Shown here one piece after another: positions 501 to 46,945 of a stretch of 54,559 nt of DNA (the stretch's first letter is position 1; each line of letters starts with the position of its first letter). Origin of the DNA: Opitutales bacterium (GTDB taxonomy: Bacteria; Verrucomicrobiota; Verrucomicrobiia; Opitutales; Oceanipulchritudinaceae); assembly GCA_020831525.1 (NCBI GenBank), contig JAFIGH010000025.1:1-54559 (forward strand), in the 5' to 3' direction. The position numbers and the translations under genes are program-made. The notes under the pieces were generated by a model. The model was given only the letters and a program-made list of their open reading frames with translations, ran no database searches and was not told the DNA's origin.

Positions 501-3431
501 CTACATCGCGGCAACGAGGTTTTTGATGTCCTTGAGGGAGACGGTGGCGGACTGCGCGGCGGATTCGTCGAGGAGGTCGCGGAGGATGCCGGCTTTGGTG
601 CGCTGGAGTTCGAGGACGCGTTCTTCGACGGTGGAGGCCATGATGAGTTTGTAGCTGGTGACGGTGCGCGTCTGGCCGATGCGGTGGGCGCGGTCGGTGG
701 CCTGGGCTTCGACGGCGGGGTTCCACCACGGATCGAAGTGGACGACGGTGTCGGCTCCGGTGAGGTTGAGGCCGGAGCCGCCCGCCTTGAGGGAGATGAG
801 GAAGACGGGGACGGAAGGATCGATATTGAAGCGGTCGACCTCGCCCTGGCGGTCGCGGGTGGAGCCGTCGAGGTAGTTGTAGGTGTATCCACTTTCCTGG
901 AGGAAGGCGCGCAGGTGCGTGAGGACGGAGACAAACTGGGAGAAGACGAGCATGCGGTGCCCGCCGTCGACGGCTTCTTCGAGCAGTTCGCGGAAGGCGA
1001 GGAGTTTGCCGGAATCGCGCGGGCGCAGGGAGTCTTCGAGGAGGCGGGGCTCGGCGCAGACCTGCCGCAGGCGCAGGAGCTGGGCGAGCGCGGCGATGCG
1101 GATGCGGCCCTCGGAAGCCCCGGTGGATTCCAGCTCGGCGATGGTCTGCTCGGTGCGGGTGCGCACGGCGGCGTAGAGCCGGGCCTGCGCGGCGGACATT
1201 TCGCAGAAGACGGTCTGCTCGAGCTTTTCGGGCAGCTCGGGAGCAACGAGTTGCTTGCTGCGGCGGAGAATGTAGGGGGCGGCGCGGCGCATATCCTCGT
1301 TGTCGTGCCAGCGCTTGTCGTCGCCCCGCAGACCGGGCGGCAGGGGGCGCAGGTGCCCGGGGAGAACAAAGGCAAAGAGGGAGCGGAGGTCATCGACACT
1401 GTTTTCCACAGGTGTGCCGGTGAGAACGAAACGGGCGTCGGCCCGCACGCGCCGCAGAGCCTTGGCGGCCTGCGTGCGGCGGTTTTTGATATGCTGCGCT
1501 TCGTCGGCGACTGCAAGGCGGAACGGCGTGGCATTGAAGAGCGCTTCGTCGCGCGTGAGGGTGCCGTAGGAGGTGAGGACGATGTCGTAACGGGCGGCGT
1601 CCTCCGGCGATTCGAGGCGGTTGTTGCCGTGGTGGATAAAGACGGAAAAGGCGGGCGTGAAGCGCGCCGCCTCGCGCCGCCAGTTTTCGAGCAGGCTGGC
1701 CGGGCAGACGACGAGCGACGGTTGCCGTCGACCGGCGTCGGAGCGCGCGGCGGCGAGGAGGGCGAGCGCCTGCGGTGTCTTGCCGAGGCCCATTTCGTCG
1801 GCGAGGACGCCGCCAAGGCCGTTGCGGGCGAGGTGCCACATCCACGCCACCCCGATCATCTGGTAGCCGCGCAGGCACTTGGCGAGGTCGTCGGGCAACG
1901 GAGGGGTGGCGAGGTGCTGGATGGAGCGCAGCGCGGCGGTGCGCGCCTTCCATTCCTCGGGGAGGACGATCTCCTCATCGTCGAAGACGTCTTCGAGCGC
2001 GCTTTCGGCAGGGGCGAGTGCCGGCGTCTTGAGCGTCTGGCGGAACTCGGGCGAAAACGGGCGCGAGGGATTGCCGGAAAGCGCCTGCTGCACCTTCTCG
2101 GCCCGCTCGAGGCTGGCGAGGTCGATGAGAAAAACCTTGTCCGGAGCAAGGATGTAGGGCTGGCCAGAGGCGATGGCGCGCCGGATCGTTTCGGTATCGG
2201 GCGCGCCGCTCCCGGCCTCGACGGAGACGGCGAAGTGGTCGCCGGAGGACTCGCCGCGCACCTTCCAGCGCACCCACTCACGGGCAGCGAAGCGGGCTTG
2301 GAAATTGCCTGTGAACTCTGCGCGGTAGGTTTGGGCAAGGTTGTGCTCGTGCCGGGCGAGAAACGAAAGGACCTTGTGGCGGTCGCGCAGCCACCAGCGG
2401 CCGTTGGAATGTTCGAGGCGGAAGTCGTGTTCCCTGAGAAGCGCGGACAGGCGCTCGTAGAGCGGGTCGTCTTTATCCGGCAGGTGGACGGAGAGAAAGT
2501 GCGGCGAGCCGTCGATCTCGAGGCCGCCGCCGTTACGTCCGGGCGGCGTGCCGGCCGGGGCCGCGCGAAATGCCTCCACCGCCGACGGCCGCGGCGGCGG
2601 GCCGGGACGCCCGCGCTTTACCGTGACGGCTGCGGCGGCTTTGGGCGCATCCGGCTTGGGCAGGTGCTCCGAGACGCCGACGAGCGACTTCCCGTCCCAT
2701 GCGAGGGGCTTGCCGGCGGCGTTGGCCCAATAGAAGGCGTCGCTTCCGGCAAGATCGGCGACGAGGCTACCGAGCTGCCCGGCCTTGAGCTGCATGAAGC
2801 CGTGGGGACGCTCTCCCCCACTCCACTCCGTGAGGCGCGCAAGGGCGCGGCGGGCTCCCGGCGAGAGGCAATAGGCGCGCCCGCGGAAGAGGCGCTCAGG
2901 CGGCGCGGGACGCTCGCCCGCGGCGGCCAGTTCGAGGCGCACCGGTATGGCGTTGCGTTTGGCGGCGGCGGGCAGGTTGGGCGGAAGAATGAAGCGCGGC
3001 GCGAGGGCCGCACCGTCATCCGCCTCGCGCAGCCAACCGACGGCGGCGGGCGGTGCAGGCTGTTCTTCAATCTTCGGGTGGCGCGGCGGTGTCGTTGCGG
3101 GTTTCCGCGCCGCCGCGGCGACTTCCGCCTTCCGGCGCGCCTCAAGGGCAAGGCAGACCGCGATGGCGTGGCGGCAGAAGCGCCCCCGCCGACCGTCGGC
3201 GCACCCGCACCGGTTGGTCGCAAACGTAACCGAGCGCAGGTTCACGGTGACGCCGCGGGTATGTCCGCCGTCGACGACCTCACCCCGGATTTCGGGCGCG
3301 GACCACTCCGCCCGTTTCACGGCGCCCGCCTTGACCAAGGCCCGCGCCTCGCGCAGGACCGTCCACCCCCCGAACTCGACGAGGGCATCCCGCGACAGGT
3401 CGGGAAGATCGGCAAGACCTCCGGCGGCCAT
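501..3431 (-). CDS. SNF2-family ATPase with N-terminal SWIM zinc finger
   Basis: A 976-residue SWI2/SNF2 superfamily protein, an ATP-driven double-stranded DNA translocase. An N-terminal SWIM-type zinc finger is visible (C75, C77, C86, H88). After a long middle region comes the two-lobe motor: Walker A GLGKT at 548-552, a DEAQ form of motif II at 643-646, and the second lobe with the diagnostic RAHRIGQ at 914-920. This HepA/RapA-like layout with SWIM is common in bacteria and is tied in general to transcription recycling or DNA repair; the target here is unknown. The ATG lies six bases after the stop of the enoyl-reductase-like gene, so the two are probably co-transcribed. Family assignment is secure; cellular role is not. 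Confidence 0.95.
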   Translation of the reverse strand: MAAGGLADLPDLSRDALVEFGGWTVLREARALVKAGAVKRAEWSAPEIRGEVVDGGHTRGVTVNLRSVTFATNRCGCADGRRGRFCRHAIAVCLALEARRKAEVAAAARKPATTPPRHPKIEEQPAPPAAVGWLREADDGAALAPRFILPPNLPAAAKRNAIPVRLELAAAGERPAPPERLFRGRAYCLSPGARRALARLTEWSGGERPHGFMQLKAGQLGSLVADLAGSDAFYWANAAGKPLAWDGKSLVGVSEHLPKPDAPKAAAAVTVKRGRPGPPPRPSAVEAFRAAPAGTPPGRNGGGLEIDGSPHFLSVHLPDKDDPLYERLSALLREHDFRLEHSNGRWWLRDRHKVLSFLARHEHNLAQTYRAEFTGNFQARFAAREWVRWKVRGESSGDHFAVSVEAGSGAPDTETIRRAIASGQPYILAPDKVFLIDLASLERAEKVQQALSGNPSRPFSPEFRQTLKTPALAPAESALEDVFDDEEIVLPEEWKARTAALRSIQHLATPPLPDDLAKCLRGYQMIGVAWMWHLARNGLGGVLADEMGLGKTPQALALLAAARSDAGRRQPSLVVCPASLLENWRREAARFTPAFSVFIHHGNNRLESPEDAARYDIVLTSYGTLTRDEALFNATPFRLAVADEAQHIKNRRTQAAKALRRVRADARFVLTGTPVENSVDDLRSLFAFVLPGHLRPLPPGLRGDDKRWHDNEDMRRAAPYILRRSKQLVAPELPEKLEQTVFCEMSAAQARLYAAVRTRTEQTIAELESTGASEGRIRIAALAQLLRLRQVCAEPRLLEDSLRPRDSGKLLAFRELLEEAVDGGHRMLVFSQFVSVLTHLRAFLQESGYTYNYLDGSTRDRQGEVDRFNIDPSVPVFLISLKAGGSGLNLTGADTVVHFDPWWNPAVEAQATDRAHRIGQTRTVTSYKLIMASTVEERVLELQRTKAGILRDLLDESAAQSATVSLKDIKNLVAAM

Positions 3432-3437
3432 TGCGCG

Positions 3438-4418
3438 TCAGGCGGGCGTGAGCAAGACTTTGCCGAGGCGCGGGCGGCCCGCCGCCTCCACCGCCTCGAG
3501 CACCCGTTCCAGCGGAAAGGTCTCCGCCACCGGAGCGCTCACCTTGCCCTCGGTCATGAGATTGTAGAGCCGGTCCTGCATCACTTTGACGCGTTCGCGT
3601 GAATTCTCGCGGTACCATCGGTCAAGCCAGAAGCCGGAGAGAGTAATATTGTTGAAGATCAGCTGGCGCGTGGGAAAGCGGATGGGCGTAAAGTCCATCG
3701 CCCCGAAGGTCACCATCGTTCCACCGTCACCGAGTGATTTGATGAGCCGCAGCGCGCTCTCCCCGCCCACCGAATTGAGCCCGAGGACAACGGGTTGGCC
3801 GCCCGTCAGTTCCTTGACGCGCTTCTCGTAGCCCGAGTCCTCCAGCACCACGACATCCGCGCCAAGGTCCTTGAGCGGCTGCACCAGTTCTTCGCGGCGC
3901 ACGACGTTGACGGTGCGAATGTCGAGGGCGCGCGCCATCTGGATGACAAAGTAACCCACGGCGGAGTTCGCCGCGTTCTGGATCAGCCAGTCGCCCGGCG
4001 AGAGGTGCGCGTCGCGTAGGATGCGCCATGCCGTGGGCGGATTGATGAATGCCATCGCCGCCAGCTCCACGGGAATCGTGTTGGGCGCCTTCATGAGCTT
4101 CTCACCTTCGGCCACTGCGTAAGCTCTCCACGCCCCGTCTTCCGGCATGCGCACCCAGTCTCCGGGCTTGAGGGCCTCAACGCCCTCCCCTGTCTCGACA
4201 ATCTCGCCCACCCCCTCGCGCCCGGCGACAGCCGGCAGCTCCGCCAACCGCCCGTAGGTGCCGGAAATCATGCCGAAATCCGAGGGGTGAATGACAGCGG
4301 CGAGCATCTTGATCAAAACCTTGCCCGGCCCGACTTCGGGCAGGGGCACCGTCTCCACCCGCAGAGTCTCGGCGGGCGGCCCGTGTTCGTGGTAAGTGAC
4401 TGCAAGTGAATCCTTCAC
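3438..4418 (-). CDS. MECR-like 2-enoyl thioester reductase (zinc-free MDR family)
   Basis: A 326-residue medium-chain dehydrogenase/reductase. The N-terminal GroES-like half carries HPSDFGMISGTYG, and the nucleotide-binding half has the QNAANSAVG stretch. FWLDRW near residue 250 matches the trans-2-enoyl-CoA/ACP reductase (MECR/ETR) branch, which reduces enoyl thioesters with NADPH in fatty acid synthesis. No structural zinc cysteine cluster is seen, as expected for that branch. I chose the GTG at 4418 because homology begins at KDSLAVTYHEHG. An in-frame ATG at 4529 would add 37 unlike-looking residues and overlap the nitroreductase end. It is followed after six bases by the SNF2 gene. A general quinone-reductase-like MDR is the main alternative. 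Confidence 0.85.
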   Translation of the reverse strand: MKDSLAVTYHEHGPPAETLRVETVPLPEVGPGKVLIKMLAAVIHPSDFGMISGTYGRLAELPAVAGREGVGEIVETGEGVEALKPGDWVRMPEDGAWRAYAVAEGEKLMKAPNTIPVELAAMAFINPPTAWRILRDAHLSPGDWLIQNAANSAVGYFVIQMARALDIRTVNVVRREELVQPLKDLGADVVVLEDSGYEKRVKELTGGQPVVLGLNSVGGESALRLIKSLGDGGTMVTFGAMDFTPIRFPTRQLIFNNITLSGFWLDRWYRENSRERVKVMQDRLYNLMTEGKVSAPVAETFPLERVLEAVEAAGRPRLGKVLLTPA

Positions 4419-4522
4419 ACGCCCCACTGTGCAGGAATTCCGCCCCGCATCCAGTCGAAATGTGCAGACAGAGCGCCGGGGACGCACGGCGGTCGGTATC
4501 CATGCCAGAAGCCCGCCCCCGC

Positions 4523-5035
4523 CTACCATCCCCCGCGGTGCACGCGCGCTTCGTCGTAGCGATACTCCGGCGGCGGACGCTCCGCCGGATGCCCGAGCGG
4601 AAAGAGCGCGAAAGGCCGGACCGTATCCGGCACACCGAGGACCTGGCGGCAGCCCGCCTCACGCGGAGGCACGCGGATGACGGCGATCCACACTGTTCCG
4701 AGCCCGAGCGCGTGCGCCGCAAGCTGGAGGTTTTGCGCCGCGCAGGCACAGTCCTGCTCTCCGAAGCCCGCAAAGCCCTCCCGCGCCGGATCAAGGCAGA
4801 TCAGGATGGCGGCGCGCGCCTGCCGGAAGAGCGCATTACCGCTGTCCACCTCGTCAGCGAGACGGTCGAGGCGCCCGCGGTCCGTCACCACGACAAAGTG
4901 CCATGGGCGCCCGTCACCTGCGCTCGGCGCGTTCATCGCCGCCTCCAAAAGCTTTTTCAGATCCGCTTCCGCCACCGGAGTCTCCTTGAACATCCGGATG
5001 CTCCGCCGCGTCATGATCGTCTGCATCGTCTCCAT
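4523..5035 (-). CDS. Nitroreductase-family flavoprotein
   Basis: A 170-residue member of the FMN-dependent nitroreductase fold. TRRSIRMFKETPV at the N-terminus is the usual phosphate-binding RRSxRxF signature, followed by the AAMNAPSAGDGRPWHFVVV block and a C-terminal LGTVWIAV...FPLGHPAE region. Such proteins are homodimeric cytoplasmic NAD(P)H oxidoreductases; the natural substrate cannot be read from the sequence. The start is set at METMQ (5035) because the 12 residues before it are low-complexity and outside the family. It lies upstream of the enoyl-reductase-like gene with a gap of about 100 bases and just downstream of the tRNA on the same strand. Confidence 0.9.
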   Translation of the reverse strand: METMQTIMTRRSIRMFKETPVAEADLKKLLEAAMNAPSAGDGRPWHFVVVTDRGRLDRLADEVDSGNALFRQARAAILICLDPAREGFAGFGEQDCACAAQNLQLAAHALGLGTVWIAVIRVPPREAGCRQVLGVPDTVRPFALFPLGHPAERPPPEYRYDEARVHRGGW

Positions 5036-5096
5036 CGGCCCGTACCCAAACGGCCCGCGCCGCGAAGGCAAACCCCAATGGCACCCGGACAGCCGC

Positions 5097-5171
5097 TGGT
5101 GCCCCCGCCGGGACTCGAACCCGGATTAACGGTTTAGGAAACCGCGGTTCTATCCATTGAACTACGGGGAC
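5097..5171 (-). tRNA. tRNA-Arg (anticodon CCT)
   Basis: A 75-nt cloverleaf reads on the minus strand. The 7-bp acceptor stem is GTCCCCG with CGGGGGC (one G-T pair), the D stem GTTC/GAAC, the anticodon stem GCGGT/ACCGT with loop TTCCTAA, and the T arm CCGGG-TTCGAGT-CCCGG. Discriminator A and an encoded CCA follow. The anticodon at the centre of the loop is CCT, which reads the AGG arginine codon. Confidence 0.97.
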
Positions 5172-5350
5172 GGTAACGGGCGGCGCGGCAGGCACGCCAC
5201 GGTGCAAAGACGATGCCGGGCGGGGCAGGACGGGCAAGGCGGAAATGCAGCGCAGGGACAGACGGCGGCGGCACGGCCCGTTTTGCTTTGACAAGGGTAG
5301 GCCGGAGGCGGAAAGAATGGCGTTGCTTGGCCGTACGAAGACCACCGCCC

Positions 5351-6511
5351 ATGCCTTCGACAAAACAGCGCGACGCCGTCGACCTCACCTTCAACGGGAA
5401 CGACCGCCCCACCCTCGGGGTGGAGCTGGAACTGCAGTTGATCGATCCGGAGACGATGGCGTTGAAAAGCGCCATTCTCGACATCGTCGACCGCCTCCCG
5501 GAAGGCTGCGAATGGGCAAAACCGGAGTTGATGCAGTCGTACCTCGAAATCAACACGGGCGTATGCGCGGATGTCGCCGCCGTGCGGCGCGACCTTACGC
5601 AAAAGCTCCTCACTGTCGATAAAGCGGCAGCCGACAGCGGCGTGGATCTGTTTTGGGCGGGGTCGCACCCGTTTTCGCTCTGGATGGACCAGGAAATCTC
5701 GCCGAGCGAGCGCTACCACAAACTCGTGGAGAAAATGCAGGACACGGCACGGCGTATCGTCACTTTCGGGATGCACGTGCATGTGGGCGTGGAGAGCGGG
5801 GACAAGGCAATCATGATTATCGACCGCATGATGCGCTATATAGCGACCTTCCTCGCCCTCTCGGCGAACAGTCCGTTCTGGGTGGGCCGCAACACGGGCC
5901 TGCATTCGCAGCGCTGCAAGATCATGGAGCAGCTTCCCGCCGCAGGCACCCCGCCCTTCTTCCGCAACTACAGTGAATACTGCTGGGTCGTGAACCACTC
6001 AATACAGGCGGGCACCATCAACAGCATTCAGGAAATCTGGTGGGACGTGCGCCCGCACCCGCGCTTCGGCACGGTGGAGGTGCGTATCTTCGACCTCCCG
6101 CCCAATCTTGAAGACGTCCTTGCGCTCACCGCTCTCACGCAGTGCCTCGTCAAGGCCCTGAGCGAGCAGATAGACAAAGGGGTCTATCAATACGACATCC
6201 ACCCCATCATGGTGCGGCAGAACAAGTGGAAGGCCTGCCGCTACGGTATGCGTGCGGAACTCATCGATCCTGTCACGCACAACCCCATACCCGTGCGGGA
6301 CCTCGTCTTTCACCTCTACGAAAAGCTCAAGCCCTTCGCCGGAGACCTCGGCTGCACGCAGGAGTTGGGCCGGGTGCTTGGCATGCTTGAACGCACTTCC
6401 GGGGCGGAGAAGCAACTCGCCCTCTTCGATGCCACGGGTGACCTAAAAGAGGTGGTGCGACGCCTTGTGCGCGAACAGAAAGAAGACCTCTCCCGGTTCG
6501 CGAAAAGTTGA
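5351..6511 (+). CDS. ybdK: Carboxylate-amine ligase, YbdK/GCS2 family
   Basis: A 386-residue ATP-dependent carboxylate-amine ligase of the glutamate-cysteine ligase 2 family. Visible blocks are GVELELQLID at the N-terminus, SYLEINTGV, FGMHVHVGVE with its metal-binding histidines, NYSEYCWVVNHSI, and the RFGTVEVRIFD block. YbdK proteins show weak gamma-glutamylcysteine synthetase activity in vitro and their true substrates are unsettled. The ATG at 5351 gives the family start (MPSTKQRDAVDLTF). The frame is open upstream to 5213, but that segment is arginine-rich and unlike the family. It is transcribed divergently from the tRNA and convergently with the small lipoprotein gene. Confidence 0.9.
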   Translation: MPSTKQRDAVDLTFNGNDRPTLGVELELQLIDPETMALKSAILDIVDRLPEGCEWAKPELMQSYLEINTGVCADVAAVRRDLTQKLLTVDKAAADSGVDLFWAGSHPFSLWMDQEISPSERYHKLVEKMQDTARRIVTFGMHVHVGVESGDKAIMIIDRMMRYIATFLALSANSPFWVGRNTGLHSQRCKIMEQLPAAGTPPFFRNYSEYCWVVNHSIQAGTINSIQEIWWDVRPHPRFGTVEVRIFDLPPNLEDVLALTALTQCLVKALSEQIDKGVYQYDIHPIMVRQNKWKACRYGMRAELIDPVTHNPIPVRDLVFHLYEKLKPFAGDLGCTQELGRVLGMLERTSGAEKQLALFDATGDLKEVVRRLVREQKEDLSRFAKS

Positions 6512-40007: not shown

Positions 40008-41267
40008 ATGAATAACTCCGTATGCATCTGGCCGCGCACCCGTACGGAGGGTGAAAACCCTCCGCCGCGAAAGCCTTTTGTGCTCCGGAGTTCCGCGATA
40101 AATCGTGACGAGGCAACGGATGCCCAATTGCTCCGTGCTGCCGCAAGGATGAACAAGCTCGGAGCATGGAGCCTGTCGCTGCCGGACGGCGGACACCGCT
40201 GGACAGAAGAAGCACTTAAGATCCACGGGCTTCCCGCGGGCCGAAGCACGAGTCTTGATGAACTGATCCGCGTCTATATTCCGGAGCACCGTAACCTGAT
40301 CCGATCCGCCTTCGAAGCCTGTGGGGGTGAGGGAACGCCGTTCGACCTGACGCTTGCGCTGAAAAACCATGAAAGCAAACGCGTCTGGGTCCGCTTTACC
40401 GGCGAGGCCGTGCGCGATGCAAGCGGACGGATCCTCCAGGCGCGGGGCGGCATCCAGGATGTCACCGGGCAGGTTGAGTCGACGGAGGGCAACGGCGTCT
40501 TATCCCACAGCATCGATATCACCGAAGAGAAAGCCCTTGCGAAGACCCTCCTGCGCAGCCAGCGGCTCGAAAACATCGGCGCGCTTGCGGGCGGCGTGGC
40601 GCATGACCTGAACAACATTCTTTCGCCCATCATCATCGCAACCGATCTTTTGGAACGCAACCTTCCGGACAAACGTCAGCGGGAACTCCTTTCGACTATC
40701 CGCAACAGCGCTCTCCGCGGGTCGGAAATGGTCAAGCAAATCCTCACATTCGCCCGCGGAGCCGACGGTCAGACATCGATAATCGACTTCAATCTCATTC
40801 TCAAGGAAATCCGCCGTCTTGTCGCCGAGACTTTTCCGAAGGAGATCCATTACACCTTTTTTGACTGTCCGCACCCATGGAGCGTGGAGGGCGACGCCAC
40901 GCAACTGCACCAGGTGCTCCTCAATCTGTGCGTGAACGCGCGCGATGCGATGCCCATGGGCGGAAGGCTGAACGTCGGAATCGAGAATTTCCGCCTCACG
41001 GAGGGAGACGCGGCGCCTGTGCGGGGGATGGCGCCGGGAACCTATGTCCGGATGTTCGTCGCGGACGACGGCGAAGGTATCGCGCCGGGAGACCTCGACC
41101 GGATATTTGATCCATTTTTCTCGACGAAGCCGCCGGGCGCGGGCACCGGCCTCGGTCTCGCCACATCGCGCGATATTATCAAAAAGCACGGCGGGTCGAT
41201 AACCGTGCAAAGCGAACCCGGCAACGGCGCGATCTTCCAAGTATTTGTTCCCGCGAAGCCCCGGTAA
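40008..41267 (+). CDS. PAS sensor histidine kinase, internally deleted paralogue
   Basis: 419 residues: N-terminal PAS-like domain (about 50-155, LGAWSLSLPDGGHRWTEEAL), then directly the dimerisation/phosphoacceptor helix with H-box ALAGGVAHDLNNILSPI and an HATPase_c domain with N-box, G1 (DDGEGIAPGD) and G2 (GTGLGLATSRD). No membrane segment, so it is a cytoplasmic sensor. Compared with the kinase at 41485, it lacks two PAS domains (junction at about residue 158, VESTEGNGVLSHSID) and the receiver domain. The ATPase part is base-for-base identical over 40722-41239. Its stop TAA arises at a junction with a receiver-gene remnant. It could still phosphorylate a partner protein; it may also be a decaying copy. 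Confidence 0.88.
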   Translation: MNNSVCIWPRTRTEGENPPPRKPFVLRSSAINRDEATDAQLLRAAARMNKLGAWSLSLPDGGHRWTEEALKIHGLPAGRSTSLDELIRVYIPEHRNLIRSAFEACGGEGTPFDLTLALKNHESKRVWVRFTGEAVRDASGRILQARGGIQDVTGQVESTEGNGVLSHSIDITEEKALAKTLLRSQRLENIGALAGGVAHDLNNILSPIIIATDLLERNLPDKRQRELLSTIRNSALRGSEMVKQILTFARGADGQTSIIDFNLILKEIRRLVAETFPKEIHYTFFDCPHPWSVEGDATQLHQVLLNLCVNARDAMPMGGRLNVGIENFRLTEGDAAPVRGMAPGTYVRMFVADDGEGIAPGDLDRIFDPFFSTKPPGAGTGLGLATSRDIIKKHGGSITVQSEPGNGAIFQVFVPAKPR

Positions 41268-41484: not shown

Positions 41485-43752
41485 ATGATCCCGGAGGAAG
41501 AAGAGAATGCCTTACTGCTCCGCGTCGCCGCCAAAATCGGTAAATTCGGGGCGTGGAGCGTCTCGCTCCCGGACGGCAAACACCGCTGGACGGAGGAGGC
41601 GCGGCAAATCCACGGAGTTCCCGCAGGCGAGCGGCCGGACCTCGGTGAGTTGATCCGCTTCTACATTCCGGAACACCGTGCCCTCATCCAATCCGCCTTC
41701 GAAGCCTGCGCACAGGAGGGCACGCCGTTTGACCTGACGCTCGCGCTGGACAACCGCGCAGGCGAACGCGTGTGGGTCCGGTGCACGGGCGAGGCCGTGC
41801 GCGACGCGTCCGGGCGAATCGTCCAGGCGCGGGGAGGCGTCCAGGATGTCACCAGTCAAGTGGAGGCATCAAAGCGACTTCGCGACAGCGAGAGCCGCAA
41901 CCTCGCACTTTTCGAAAACCGACACATCGCCATGCTGCTTGTCGATCCGGGAGACGGGTCAATCATCGACGCCAATCCAGCCGCTGAAAGCTTCTACGGC
42001 TGGACACGTGACGAACTCCGCACCAAACGCATCGAGGAGATCAACACACTATCCCCCGCCCGCACTCGCGGGGAGATCGAGGACGCCCTTCGTCTTAAGC
42101 GCACCGATTTCCAGCACCGCCACCGGCTGGCGAACGGAGATATCCGTGACGTCGAGGTCCTTTCGGCGCCCATCGAACACGGGGAACGCCCGCTGCTCTA
42201 TTCGATTATCCGCGATCTGACGCAGCGCAAACTCGCGGAGGCGAAAATCCGGCTTTTCGCGCGGATGGTGGAAACCATCCCGCACCCCATGGCCTATATC
42301 AACTGCGAATACCGTTACGAGGTGGTCAATCCGGCGTACGCCAGCTGCTTCGGCGCTGTGCCCGAAGACATGGTCGGGAAAACCATCCCGGACTTCTTCG
42401 GCGCCGATGTCTTCGAAAGCGAAATCAAGCCCCGCGCCGACCGGGCGCTGTCCGGCGAGGACGTCCGCTTTGAGGCGGCGTTTCAATTTCCCGCTTATGG
42501 CCTCCGGTGGACCCTGCGGAGCTATTTTCCGTACACCGACGAGACCGGAAGTGTGATCGGCGTCTTTTCCCACAGCATCGATATCACCGAAGAGAAGACC
42601 CTCGCGAAGACCCTCCTGCGCAGCCAGCGGCTCGAAAGCATCGGCGCGCTCGCGGGCGGCGTGGCCCATGACCTGAACAACATTCTCTCGCCCATCGTCA
42701 TGGCATCCGACCTTCTCGAGCTTGACCTAACGGACAAACGCCCGAGGGAACTCATCTCGACCATCCGCAACAGCGCCCGCCGCGGCTCGGAAATGGTCAA
42801 GCAAATCCTCACATTCGCCCGCGGAGCCGACGGTCAGACATCGATAATCGACTTCAATCTCATTCTCAAGGAAATCCGCCGTCTTGTCGCCGAGACTTTT
42901 CCGAAGGAGATCCATTACACCTTTTTTGACTGTCCGCACCCATGGAGCGTGGAGGGCGACGCCACGCAACTGCACCAGGTGCTCCTCAATCTGTGCGTGA
43001 ACGCGCGCGATGCGATGCCCATGGGCGGAAGGCTGAACGTCGGAATCGAGAATTTCCGCCTCACGGAGGGAGACGCGGCGCCTGTGCGGGGGATGGCGCC
43101 GGGAACCTATGTCCGGATGTTCGTCGCGGACGACGGCGAAGGTATCGCGCCGGGAGACCTCGACCGGATATTTGATCCATTTTTCTCGACGAAGCCGCCG
43201 GGCGCGGGCACCGGCCTCGGTCTCGCCACATCGCGCGATATTATCAAAAAGCACGGCGGGTCGATAACCGTGCAAAGCGAACCCGGCAACGGCGCGATCT
43301 TCCAGATATTTCTCCCCGCGGAGCCCAGAGAGCGGGCGGATGCGGCACCCGAACCAGCGGGGCCTGTCGTGCCCGGCAACGAAAAGCGCATACTCGTGGT
43401 GGACGACGAGGCCTCCATCCGCAGCATCATCAAGCAAGTGCTGGAAGCCCACGACTACACGCCTGTCACCGCCGCCAACGGGGCCGAAGCGCTTGTGTTT
43501 CTCGCGGAGGATCCCGGCGGATTTTCCGCCGCCCTCGTCGACGCCCACATGCCGGTCATGGGCGGAGTGCCGACCATCCGCGCGATCCGTGCCATCCGGC
43601 GCGACCTCCCGGTCATCCTCGTAAGCGGCGACACTCAGTTAGTCACCCCCGAGAACGTCAAGGCCATCGGAGCGACGGGAAGCTTGTCGAAGCCCTTCAC
43701 CACCCAAAATATGCTGCACGCCCTTGAGCAGGTGTTGCCGGTGGCGCACTGA
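41485..43752 (+). CDS. Hybrid histidine kinase: three PAS, HATPase, receiver
   Basis: 755 residues, no transmembrane segment. PAS 1 (about 10-115, FGAWSVSLPDGKHRWTEEAR), PAS 2 (about 140-245, FYGWTRDELRTKRIEEIN) and PAS 3 (about 255-370, SCFGAVPEDMVGKTIPDFF). Then comes the kinase core with H-box GGVAHDLNNILSPIV and HATPase_c (about 385-610), and a C-terminal receiver (about 635-755) with VVDDEA, phosphoacceptor Asp in ALVDAHMPVMGG, and LSKPF. The receiver is fused to the kinase without an Hpt domain, so the output is unclear; hybrid kinases of this form often hand phosphate to a separate Hpt protein. A 518-bp identical block (42787-43304) shared with the upstream kinase shows recent duplication or gene conversion. 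Confidence 0.93.
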   Translation: MIPEEEENALLLRVAAKIGKFGAWSVSLPDGKHRWTEEARQIHGVPAGERPDLGELIRFYIPEHRALIQSAFEACAQEGTPFDLTLALDNRAGERVWVRCTGEAVRDASGRIVQARGGVQDVTSQVEASKRLRDSESRNLALFENRHIAMLLVDPGDGSIIDANPAAESFYGWTRDELRTKRIEEINTLSPARTRGEIEDALRLKRTDFQHRHRLANGDIRDVEVLSAPIEHGERPLLYSIIRDLTQRKLAEAKIRLFARMVETIPHPMAYINCEYRYEVVNPAYASCFGAVPEDMVGKTIPDFFGADVFESEIKPRADRALSGEDVRFEAAFQFPAYGLRWTLRSYFPYTDETGSVIGVFSHSIDITEEKTLAKTLLRSQRLESIGALAGGVAHDLNNILSPIVMASDLLELDLTDKRPRELISTIRNSARRGSEMVKQILTFARGADGQTSIIDFNLILKEIRRLVAETFPKEIHYTFFDCPHPWSVEGDATQLHQVLLNLCVNARDAMPMGGRLNVGIENFRLTEGDAAPVRGMAPGTYVRMFVADDGEGIAPGDLDRIFDPFFSTKPPGAGTGLGLATSRDIIKKHGGSITVQSEPGNGAIFQIFLPAEPRERADAAPEPAGPVVPGNEKRILVVDDEASIRSIIKQVLEAHDYTPVTAANGAEALVFLAEDPGGFSAALVDAHMPVMGGVPTIRAIRAIRRDLPVILVSGDTQLVTPENVKAIGATGSLSKPFTTQNMLHALEQVLPVAH

Positions 43753-43861: not shown

Positions 43862-45166
43862 ATGAGCGAACCGGATGCACCAAAAACCGAAGCGTCCCGG
43901 CGTGACTGCCTGCGCGCGGCCACGGCGAAGGCGCACAGCGCGTTGGAGGCCCTGCCGTTTTTCGAGGCCCTGGAGGCGCGGCAACTGCCGCTCCAATCCT
44001 ACGCCACCTACCTGCGGGCGTGGACGATGGGGATGGCGGCCTTTGAGGAGTGCCTCGCGGAATGCCCCCACGCCGGAGTGAAGCGCCTTGCCGCTCTGCG
44101 CACACCCGTGATGGAGGCACTGCACCACGATCTCGTCTACCTCTCGCAGCGGTGCCCGGCGGATATTCCGGAGGCGGTGGAGGCGGCGGCCCGCTGGTCG
44201 GCGCGCATCCGCCGGAGCGCGGGCGCAAATGCCGCTGCGCTCGTCGGCATACTCTATGCCGTGGAGGGCTCGGGCCGGGGCGCGGCGGTCCTCGGGCCGA
44301 TGGTGCGGGAGTGTTTCGGCTTCGGCGCGGACGGGGGCGCGGAAGCATTCGCCGTTGCCGCCCGCGGCGGAGAAGAGTATTGGGGCGAATTCGTTGCCTG
44401 CCTCGACGCGCTCTCCCTCACGGCGGAGGAAGAGACCGCCGCGGCGGACGCGTCGATGGAGTTTTTCGAACGGTTCGCGGAGGTCGCGGACGCCCTGTAT
44501 CCCTATATCGACGGCGCGCCGCGAGCCCTCGCGGTAACGCTCAACCCCCACGCCGGAAGCCATCCGGTGCCCGACGACCCGCGCGAGATCGAGGCGGCCC
44601 GCACGGCCGCGCTGGAGTGCTGGCGGGCGTTTCCGTATTTAGAACACCGCTACGGAGCGCGCGGCCGGCTCTACGCCGAAAGCGACGGCGCATGGCTGGC
44701 CACGCTCTGCCGTATCGAGGCGAAAACCGCGCTGCGCCAGGTAGACTGGCTCTCGCGCGTCCTCGCCACCCGCGGCATGCCTTCGGTAATTCTTGAGGAC
44801 AAGCTGCGCCGTCTTGCAGACGCCTACGGCACCGCTTTTCCGGAAGATCCGGAGCGGGCGGCGCGCTTCCGCGAATTGGCGGACCACCTGCGCTCGGGTC
44901 GTCTCCGGCGTCTCACGGAGTCCGCCGCCGCCGAACTCACCCGCGAGTTCCGCGCCGGAGCGCACGCGGAGTGCGACCGCCTTCCCGAGGCACCCGCTCT
45001 CCTCGCCGCGGCTGTGGCCGACGAGGCCAACAGCGCCGAAGGCGCGGTGGCCAAGCTCCGCGACTGGCTGGCCGACAGTGAGCGCTTTTCTCCGTCATGG
45101 GCCGCCGCCGTCGACGGATTCCTCGAAGGGGCGCGTAAACGACTGGAGACACTGCACCATGGGTAA
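43862..45166 (+). CDS. Heme-oxygenase-like protein with C-terminal helical extension
   Basis: 434 residues. The first ~200 resemble bacterial heme oxygenase (BphO/HemO fold): LRAATAKAHSALEALPFF places H25 at the position of the haem-ligating histidine, YATYLRAWTMGMAAFE follows, and VGILYAVEGSGRGAAVLG matches the LYVLEGSxLGG distal-helix motif. Active enzymes open haem to biliverdin, Fe2+ and CO. The next ~230 residues are helical and unrecognised (CRIEAKTALRQVDWLSRVL, MPSVILEDKLRRLADAYG). It overlaps the following B12-protein gene by eight bases, so the two are translated together. It may make or bind a tetrapyrrole for the sensor system; a non-catalytic haem sensor is the alternative. Fold assignment is moderately sure, activity unproven. 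Confidence 0.72.
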   Translation: MSEPDAPKTEASRRDCLRAATAKAHSALEALPFFEALEARQLPLQSYATYLRAWTMGMAAFEECLAECPHAGVKRLAALRTPVMEALHHDLVYLSQRCPADIPEAVEAAARWSARIRRSAGANAAALVGILYAVEGSGRGAAVLGPMVRECFGFGADGGAEAFAVAARGGEEYWGEFVACLDALSLTAEEETAAADASMEFFERFAEVADALYPYIDGAPRALAVTLNPHAGSHPVPDDPREIEAARTAALECWRAFPYLEHRYGARGRLYAESDGAWLATLCRIEAKTALRQVDWLSRVLATRGMPSVILEDKLRRLADAYGTAFPEDPERAARFRELADHLRSGRLRRLTESAAAELTREFRAGAHAECDRLPEAPALLAAAVADEANSAEGAVAKLRDWLADSERFSPSWAAAVDGFLEGARKRLETLHHG

Positions 45167-45818
45167 GCCCTCCATCGTCAGTGAGGAGACCTTCGCAGAT
45201 TACCTCGACGCCGTATTGACGGGCGACCTGCCGCGTTGCCGGCGGATCGTTCAATCGCTCATCGATGCGGACGTGGAAGTGGCGGACCTCTACAAGAACC
45301 TCTTCCACCGCGCGCAGTACGCCATCGGCGAACTGTGGGAAAAGAACCGGATCTCCGTGGCAAAGGAGCACCTCGCGACCTCTATCACAGAGAGTCTCAT
45401 GACCCTCGTGTACCCAAAACTCTTTCGCGGCGAGCGCTCGGGGCGCAAGGTGGTCGTATCGTCCGCCCCAAACGAGTATCACCAAATCGGAGGAAAGATG
45501 GTGGCCGACATTTTCGAAGCGCATGGCTGGGACAGCCACTTCCTCGGAGCAAACACCCCGGTGGAACGCCTCCTCGATGAGCTTCGGCGGCGGCAGCCTG
45601 ACCTCCTTGTCTTCTCCGTCGCCCTGCCAACGGGTGTCCCGCGCGTGCTCGGCGCGCTGCATACTGTGCGCACCGAGTTCCCCGCCCTGCCCGTTCTCGC
45701 CGGGGGCAAGGCCATCGCGGACGGAGCGGGCGAAGAACTGGCCGCCGAACCCGGCGTCACCCTTATGACCACTCTCGACGAACTCGAAGCCTTTCTCACC
45801 GAAGCAACTCCAGCATGA
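45159..45818 (+). CDS. Cobalamin-binding protein with CarH-type Wx9EH motif
   Basis: 219 residues: a four-helix cap (about 5-90) and a Rossmann B12-binding domain (about 95-215). The cap ends LWEKNRISVAKEHLAT, where W60 and E70-H71 form the Wx9EH motif that in CarH senses light through adenosylcobalamin. The B12 domain has EYHQIGG (E106, H108, G111; the family motif is DxHxxG, so the lower-ligand His is kept but D is E), SVAL at the SxL position and AGGKAIADG for the GG motif. No DNA-binding or catalytic domain is attached, so output must go through a partner, most likely the kinase whose gene overlaps by four bases downstream (ATGA). B12 level could be sensed in place of light. Confidence 0.88.
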   Translation: MGKPSIVSEETFADYLDAVLTGDLPRCRRIVQSLIDADVEVADLYKNLFHRAQYAIGELWEKNRISVAKEHLATSITESLMTLVYPKLFRGERSGRKVVVSSAPNEYHQIGGKMVADIFEAHGWDSHFLGANTPVERLLDELRRRQPDLLVFSVALPTGVPRVLGALHTVRTEFPALPVLAGGKAIADGAGEELAAEPGVTLMTTLDELEAFLTEATPA

Positions 45819-46945
45819 ACCCAAAGGACTTTGACGCTGACATCGCCGCCTACGCCCGCACGGAAGCGCCCGCCCTCCTCATCGCCTTTGACCGCGGCGG
45901 GTGCATCCTCTGGTCGGGGGACCACATCCGCTCGGTCCTCGGCGGGGATCCCGCGGGCAAGCCCTTCACGGAGATCTTCGCACGCGTTCCGGCGGACCGG
46001 ACCTTCGAAGAATGGCGGCCCGCCGAGGGAGAGGAAACGAATGTGGACATCCGGGTGTCCGGAAACCTCCCGCAGACATGGAAGGTCATCTTCCGTACGC
46101 GCGGGGACAAAGTCCTCGCAGCGGGCCGCCGCGACACTGCCGAGATCGAAGGCCTTGAGCAAAACCTTCTCTCCCTCAACGCCGAGCTGAGCAACCGGAC
46201 CCGCGAGTTGCACAAGGCCAATGCCGAACTGGAGCGGCTCAATACGCTCAAGAACCGCTTCCTCGGCATCGCGGCGCACGACCTGCGCACACCCCTCGGT
46301 GTCATCATGGCCTACAGCGAACTGCTGGAAGACGAGGCGGCACCCGCCATGGAGGCGGAACACCGCGGGTTTGTCTCCGCCATCCGCAGCAGCAGTGAGT
46401 TCATGCTCACGCTGATTAACGACCTCCTCGACGTCGCCACCATCGAGTCAGGAAAGCTGACGCTGGAACGCGAGACCGTCGACCTGCCGGTCGTGCTCGC
46501 CGCAAACGTCGCCCTCAACCGCATCCTCGCAGCACGAAAAAATATCGCCCTCGCCTTTGCTCCGCCGCCGGACTTCCCCGCCGTGTCCCTCGACCGCGTC
46601 AAGTTCGAGCAGGTCATGAACAACCTCCTCGGCAACGCCGTCAAATATTCCGAACCCGGAACAACCACGACCGTCGCGCTCACGCGCCGCGACGGCAAGG
46701 CGGAGATCACCGTGAGCGATGAAGGTCCCGGGATTCCGCGCGAGAAGATGGACCAGCTCTTCCAGCCGTTCAGCCGCGTCGGCACGCGCACAACCGGCAA
46801 CGAGCCAAGCACCGGGCTGGGCTTGCTCATTGCCCGCAAGATCGTCGAAGGCCACGGCGGCCGCATTCGCGTGGACCCAACGGCCAAACGCGGGACGACA
46901 TTCGTCCTTGAACTGCCCCTGCGCGCCCCAGCCCCGCGGGCGTAG
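45815..46945 (+). CDS. PAS histidine kinase coupled to B12 protein
   Basis: 376 residues, soluble. PAS-like domain (about 15-110, [26 protein letters not shown]), a coiled-coil helix (about 110-145), HisKA with phosphoacceptor H155 ([16 protein letters not shown]), and HATPase_c with N-box [17 protein letters not shown]1 SDEGPGIP and G2 [17 protein letters not shown]. No receiver is attached and no response-regulator gene is adjacent, so the partner lies elsewhere, or the receiver of the hybrid kinase at 41485 serves. Translational coupling with the B12 protein suggests that protein is its input. The gene closes the three-gene unit. Distinct family from the HDLNN kinases upstream. Confidence 0.92.

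Follow-up and report, generated by a model that had tools for sequence, protein, structure and literature searches.

We describe here a three-gene operon in a 54,559-nucleotide stretch of DNA (the window; positions 1 to 54,559 of contig JAFIGH010000025.1, assembly GCA_020831525.1) from an Opitutales bacterium. The operon encodes a heme oxygenase (HO) joined to a predicted globin, a B12 protein and a histidine kinase, and we consider it, with a probability of roughly two in three, to be a two-component system built on a split photocobilin, the bilin subunit of which would produce its own biliverdin. This reading is based on the domain identities, the motifs, the linkage of the genes and the presence of HO and globin in one chain.

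The first protein is a predicted fusion of an HO to a photoglobin-like (bilin-type) globin. Its N-terminal part matched Pfam Heme_oxygenase (PF01126, residues 17-209, E 1.9e-13, 51.1 bits vs a cut-off of 23). The AlphaFold model of the 434-residue protein had a pLDDT of 92.4, and comparison of the HO domain with rat HO-1 (1dvg) gave a VIA Z of 24.3 over 205 residues with a root-mean-square deviation (rmsd) of 2.5; in fold searches with the whole model, the matches listed were HO or HO-like entries. Conservation was read from 20-row alignments (A5, A6) of the window and 19 relatives, where one row (L019) ends at a contig edge inside the HO domain and another (L088) is without HO domain. His25 is found in all 18 rows having a complete HO domain and Gly136/Gly140 in the 19 rows covering that region. 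By sequence and model, this domain is a real HO fold with the proximal histidine and the distal glycines, and heme turnover is predicted. A preliminary description of this DNA had called the first gene heme-oxygenase-like; the HO domain is indeed genuine, but behind it lies another conserved domain, about 210 residues long, that had been overlooked.

This second domain (residues 222-434) showed no Pfam or NCBIfam match at E 10 and is well conserved across the 20 rows. Its first 110 or so residues, hereafter globin-C, matched the globins of two sets of fused globin-B12 proteins in hhalign comparisons, with P values of 2e-5 and 4e-7, while the HO-domain comparisons used as controls gave 0.06-0.27 and the best among 60 column shuffles 0.02. 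Both sets were drawn from plasmid records, the first from Streptomyces and Nonomuraea (globin last), the second from Azospirillum, Skermanella and Ilyobacter (globin first); 10 of the 12 plasmid loci (L092-L103) entered them, L097 and L103 being left out and L101 and L102 being identical in sequence. Residues D275, W278, W296, R304, G305 and P307 are invariant (20/20 rows), and in the hhalign alignments D275 and W296 land on the conserved Asp and Trp of the fused proteins. In the photocobilin SasPcob, the globin residues Asp270 and Trp296 contact biliverdin (Zhang et al. 2024, PMC10979010), and by its equal 26-residue spacing to the Trp the Streptomyces Asp would correspond to SasPcob Asp270. 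The window reads YAESDG and SDGAW around Asp275. Its globin is related in sequence to photoglobins, as the profile match to the fused globins indicates, and like photoglobins and BBAG-2 it has no CXRD attachment motif and is tied to a B12 protein, the B12 gene being adjacent. The same stretch reads SDTCW or SDACW in 7 of the 20 rows (L023, L028, L032, L038, L045, L062, L085), with a Cys at the second position past the invariant Asp, and a covalent bilin link is conceivable in these seven HO-globin proteins.

The second protein, of 219 residues, holds two B12 domains only, the first starting at residue 13 (B12-binding_2, 4.8e-14; B12-binding, 3e-16). The cap residues W60, E70 and H71 and a ligand histidine, pointed out in the preliminary description, are present; the ligand is H108, which together with E106 forms the ExH motif of the Rossmann core. 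Among 80 relatives, the best 80 of 309 loci confirmed in one genome-contig scan and thus the closest, with some genomes entering twice (e.g. L022/L029, L050/L087), W60, E70, E106 and H108 are kept in 80/80 and H71 in 79/80. Against the PDB, the B12 profile gave 4e-32 for the photocobilin entries 8j2x/8j2w, 8e-24 for 8j2y and 3e-10 for CarH, so that the closest solved relatives, as far as profile matches tell, are the photocobilins, not CarH. The comparison with CarH made in the preliminary description holds for a CarH-type B12 core standing without a DNA-binding domain, but the nearest solved relatives lie elsewhere. The protein shares the W-x9-EH cap and the ExH ligand motif with CarH/LitR, but membership of CarH was rejected, as the protein has no MerR-type DNA-binding domain and its sequence match is much weaker than to the photocobilins. 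The window genome encodes a PF01923 adenosyltransferase, which could supply the adenosylcobalamin for the B12 protein; PF02572 was searched in this genome and not found.

The third protein is a histidine kinase by its HisKA (2.3e-16) and HATPase_c (3.9e-30) domains, with a His155 invariant among 5 aligned kinases. The highest 19-residue Kyte-Doolittle mean is 1.5, and since there is no strongly hydrophobic stretch the kinase is probably soluble. By phmmer, its N-terminal 139 residues are common to the kinases of most related loci.

The open reading frames of the three genes overlap by 8 bases at the first junction and by 4 bases at the second, all on the plus strand, in agreement with what had been described before, as is the proposal that the genes are translated together, the overlapping frames coupling the B12 core translationally to the kinase. 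The order HO-B12-kinase is kept in two other Opitutales loci, L012 and L013 (the latter identical in sequence to L005), whose B12 proteins are 75% and 70% identical and whose first junction is a 4-base overlap. Judged by the names on their records, loci of other phyla have the linkage too. A same-strand kinase lies within 1.5 kb of the B12 gene in 77 of the 80 loci, globin-C is present in 19/80, a standalone globin of about 150 residues lies beside the B12 gene in 37/80, and both kinds together occur in 0/80. The globin-C gene is on the same strand and upstream of the B12 gene in 14 of the 19 loci, downstream in 4 (among them L088, without HO part) and on the opposite strand in 1. Other orders are B12-kinase-HO-globin (L040, L086), B12-HO-globin-kinase (L105) and a lone globin-C before B12-kinase (L114). 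As the same genes are found together in different orders, they would form one working unit.

HO often serves iron release, which would suit an ordinary heme iron acquisition gene lying by chance before a B12/kinase pair. We regard this as highly improbable: the genes are linked across phyla in several orders, the HO carries the fused globin, and the frames overlap in the window and in its two nearest relatives. The fused globin and the linkage led us to reject a pure iron-acquisition HO.

The pairing of HO with globin-C was then counted in 50 whole genomes having this B12 family, 18 of them picked for globin-C (the window included, L013 as G010, L032 not included) and 32 others. HO was found in 22/50, and in 22/22 an HO and a globin-C match share one open frame. 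Among the 32 genomes not picked for globin-C, 5 have HO, all 5 as fusions, and 27 have neither (Fisher 5e-6). For the window's phylum, with samples of 387, 374 and 361 genomes, fused and unfused HO were told apart by open-frame length: HO is found in 18/361 genomes, with a frame of 437 residues in the window and of 197-282 residues in the other 17. The globin-C domain is found in 1/374 genomes of the phylum, the window's own. One HO frame in G407 (L115) runs into the start of the globin domain and stops there; we take it for a fusion that is truncated or was misassembled. In G431, a second HO match is weak (22.9 bits) and was not recovered by the HO profile. The window genome has one HO, this fusion, and a phytochrome PHY domain was searched there and not found. 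In operons of BphO with a bacteriophytochrome, HO supplies biliverdin beside a photoreceptor, but that receptor is a phytochrome and the HO stands unfused (examples are L119 and L120). The PHY domain was found in 3 of the 50 genomes, the three that have an extra clear unfused HO, with an adjoining PHY frame in two. In L120 (G442 contig 18, 1-5215), a B12-domain gene with, by eye, a CarH-like N-terminus, an unfused HO and a phytochrome gene are adjacent on the same strand.

The standalone globin, modelled from a 29-row alignment (A4, holding one sequence twice as L006, partial, and L021), had a pLDDT of 94, and its fold resembles, among the matches listed by Foldseek and VIA, both heme globins and bilin proteins, the latter being phycobilisome globins and smURFP. 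VIA gave one and the same Z of 13.2 for smURFP (126 residues, rmsd 2.4) and for the heme globin of DosC; as the two tie, the fold alone is no proof of bilin binding. The photocobilin 8j2w was absent among the matches listed. By sequence profile, the standalone globin matched, at 1.7e-23, an Ilyobacter polytropus protein in which globin and B12 core are fused, over its first (globin) half, and in hhalign it gave 2e-11 with the globin-first fused set and only 0.0098 with the Streptomyces set. The Asp is present in 28/29 rows and the Trp in 29/29. HO-less genomes with a standalone globin are those of L014-L017, L021, L022, L027, L039, L058, L067, L070, L083 and L090, of which L015 and L039 lie outside the alignment. 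In the B12-kinase-globin set of L006/L021, a 354-residue protein that by eye looks Fic-type is encoded upstream with a 4-base overlap. Of the plasmid loci, L093 (Ilyobacter polytropus, 3473-5564) has a globin-first globin-B12 fusion directly followed by a gene annotated GGDEF, L094 and L098 (Azospirillum) have a globin-first globin-B12 fusion directly followed by a histidine kinase gene, and L099 (Streptomyces, 1456-3513) has a photocobilin-like gene just 5' of gas vesicle genes.

We infer the steps beyond these domain assignments, including the gating of the kinase by light or B12. The fold and kept residues of the HO domain suggest that it would open heme to biliverdin with O2 and a reductant, and the homology and invariant Asp/Trp pair of the fused globin domain suggest that it would hold the biliverdin. 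The globin would dock on the adenosylcobalamin-loaded B12 protein, rebuilding in trans the single-chain photocobilin core of SasPcob. The C-terminal extension of the first protein, about 100 residues with an invariant Phe, Asp-Glu and Trp (W402, 20/20) that match no known family, could be the docking surface for the B12 protein or the kinase. Light taken up by cobalamin (green) or biliverdin (red) would break the Co-C bond, the cleavage would loosen the B12 dimer, and the activity of the partner kinase would shift through its N-terminal region. The kinase would then phosphorylate a REC domain. The heme chemistry at this locus would be explained in this way, biliverdin being the second chromophore and the product of the oxygenase.

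A same-strand REC gene lies within 3.5 kb of the B12 gene in 42/80 loci. In the window, the REC domain of the hybrid kinase upstream of the operon (Table 1), the only window frame that a small REC profile picked up at E 1e-10, is a possible phosphoryl acceptor of the kinase.

Several observations weigh against a split photocobilin. The Asp275-Trp296 spacing is 21 residues vs 26 in SasPcob and its Streptomyces relatives. SasPcob His137 contacts biliverdin from the other monomer (PMC10979010); the B12 protein was examined for such a salt-bridge residue, but the position is not conserved, being Arg in the window and Asp in 12 of the 19 globin-C loci. PDB sequence searches with globin-C and with the standalone globins gave no photocobilin match, so the photocobilin link of globin-C was found only via profile-profile comparison with the fused proteins. 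In the same way, the kinship of globin-C to the standalone globins runs via the fused proteins, because hhalign, comparing the two directly, gave no significant match (P 0.047/0.041, whereas 60 shuffles reached 0.003 at best). For the standalone globin, Foldseek gave a probability of 1.00 but an E of about 0.03, and none of the matches reached E 0.001. The contrast in fused HO between the genomes not picked for globin-C (5/5) and the other HO genomes of the phylum (0/17; Fisher 4e-5) sets genomes of different phyla side by side. Fusions without a B12 gene in the stretch examined, some stretches being short, are found in L106-L109, L112 and L113. No globin of either kind was found in the stretch examined of 24/80 loci, 22 of which have the kinase. 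Finally, 13 of the 15 searched genomes with a standalone globin at the locus are without PF01126 HO, or 16 of 20 when every genome matching the standalone globin is counted; biliverdin derived from HO can therefore not be assumed as the ligand throughout the standalone globins.

The 22 B12-kinase pairs without detected globin nearby would fit a green-light-only sensor kinase, gated by the B12 protein alone, where the HO-globin would have an accessory part, storing or scavenging bilin or shielding the cobalamin, and a photocobilin with adenosylcobalamin only does respond to green light (PMC10979010). We consider it quite improbable, however, as some globin is present in 56/80 loci but never both kinds, which suggests an exchangeable working partner, and as the Asp/Trp pair is invariant.

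Another explanation is heme or gas sensing, the HO domain being a heme sensor and not an enzyme and the B12 protein sensing corrinoid or redox state, with no light input. Sulfate reducers, spirochaetes, Verrucomicrobia, Bacteroidales and proteobacteria are named in the records of the 80 loci, and by these names many relatives are sulfate reducers or other sediment bacteria of anaerobic lifestyle, in whose habitats light and O2 are scarce. Together with the scarcity of HO among the standalone-globin genomes, and with the weak binding of biliverdin by the photocobilin AbDPcob (PMC10979010), this argues for such a sensor. It is nevertheless unlikely, since His25 and the distal glycines of HO are kept, the globin fused to the HO has biliverdin-binding relatives, and the adenosyl-pocket Trp, Glu and His are kept in 79-80 of 80 relatives. 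PF00115 genes are also commoner with HO, being found in 19/22 HO-positive vs 13/28 HO-negative genomes (Fisher 0.007), an enrichment expected if HO needs O2; the family also takes in nitric oxide reductases.

Within the split photocobilin reading, we tentatively raise one extension, which may well not hold. Biliverdin would be passed in cis from the HO to the globin, the red arm would be armed only with heme and O2, and the kinase would be a light/oxygen coincidence detector, while the standalone-globin sisters in HO-less genomes would use another, anaerobically made bilin or none.

A photoglobin study (Schneider et al. 2022, CSBJ) reportedly predicted a bilin-type globin tied to B12 and signal-transduction domains. 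Photocobilins, i.e. SasPcob (8j2w/8j2x) and AbPcob (8j2y), are B12 cores fused to a globin, whose light response changes an output partner (Zhang et al. 2024, PMC10979010). The window system has a CarH-type B12 core and a predicted bilin-type globin as they do; it differs in that these are separate proteins, that the globin is fused to HO and that the partner is a histidine kinase. We therefore say that it would work like a photocobilin and do not class it as one, the B12 core and globin not being one polypeptide. BBAG-2 binds biliverdin, and Myxococcales have sets of globin, B12 and HO genes (Rockwell et al. 2023, PMC10151467, in the text available). There too globin and B12 genes are separate, and HO either lies in the cluster or is encoded at another place of the genome, but HO has a gene of its own and BBAG-2 is accompanied by an FDBR (pre-2); a kinase partner and an HO-globin fusion are not named in that text. 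PMC10979010 and PMC10151467 thus already describe photocobilins and bilin globins together with the genomic association of these with HO and B12 proteins, and the earlier statement that no such system had been described was too strong. In the literature consulted, no description of an HO-photoglobin fusion or of the split three-protein set was found; the 2022 photoglobin paper or supplements could hold the fusion.

Table 1. Coordinates of the features of the window, with the basis of each assignment
Feature	Position	Strand	Basis
First gene, predicted HO-photoglobin fusion, 434 residues	43862..45166	+	Pfam Heme_oxygenase; alignment A5 (20 rows); AlphaFold model
Heme oxygenase domain, residues about 11-217, proximal His25, distal-helix Gly136/Gly140	43892..44512	+	fold match, conserved residues
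Photoglobin-like globin domain (globin-C), residues about 223-335, Asp275 and Trp296	44528..44866	+	hhalign, conserved residues
Helical C-terminal extension, residues about 336-434	44867..45163	+	conservation in A6, helices in AlphaFold model
Second gene, standalone adenosylcobalamin-type sensor (predicted), 219 residues	45159..45818	+	Pfam PF02607 + PF02310; PDB matches; motif counts
Third gene, histidine kinase, 376 residues	45815..46945	+	HisKA + HATPase_c; Kyte-Doolittle
Kinase N-terminal region, 139 residues	45815..46231	+	phmmer matches; no Pfam family at E 10
PAS-histidine kinase-REC hybrid, upstream	41485..43752	+	Response_reg 7e-19
tRNA	5100-5171	minus	sole Rfam match of the window at gathering scores

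Directly 5' of the operon, two tandem PAS histidine kinases (40008-41267 and 41485-43752), the second with the REC domain, share long identical stretches and look like a recent duplication. A cobalamin riboswitch was looked for in the window and not found, the only Rfam match at gathering scores being the tRNA of Table 1.

The proposed system would give a genetic and structural reason for B12 and bilin photochemistry to meet, with the bilin-making enzyme physically within the bilin-binding subunit, and would make testable the photocobilin question of where biliverdin comes from and how important it is in vivo. It suggests that a histidine kinase is placed as the output and that the photocobilin core can be divided among several proteins; it may also offer a self-chromophorylating red/green part for optogenetics. 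The range of organisms among the 80 loci suggests a widespread and little-studied sensory family.

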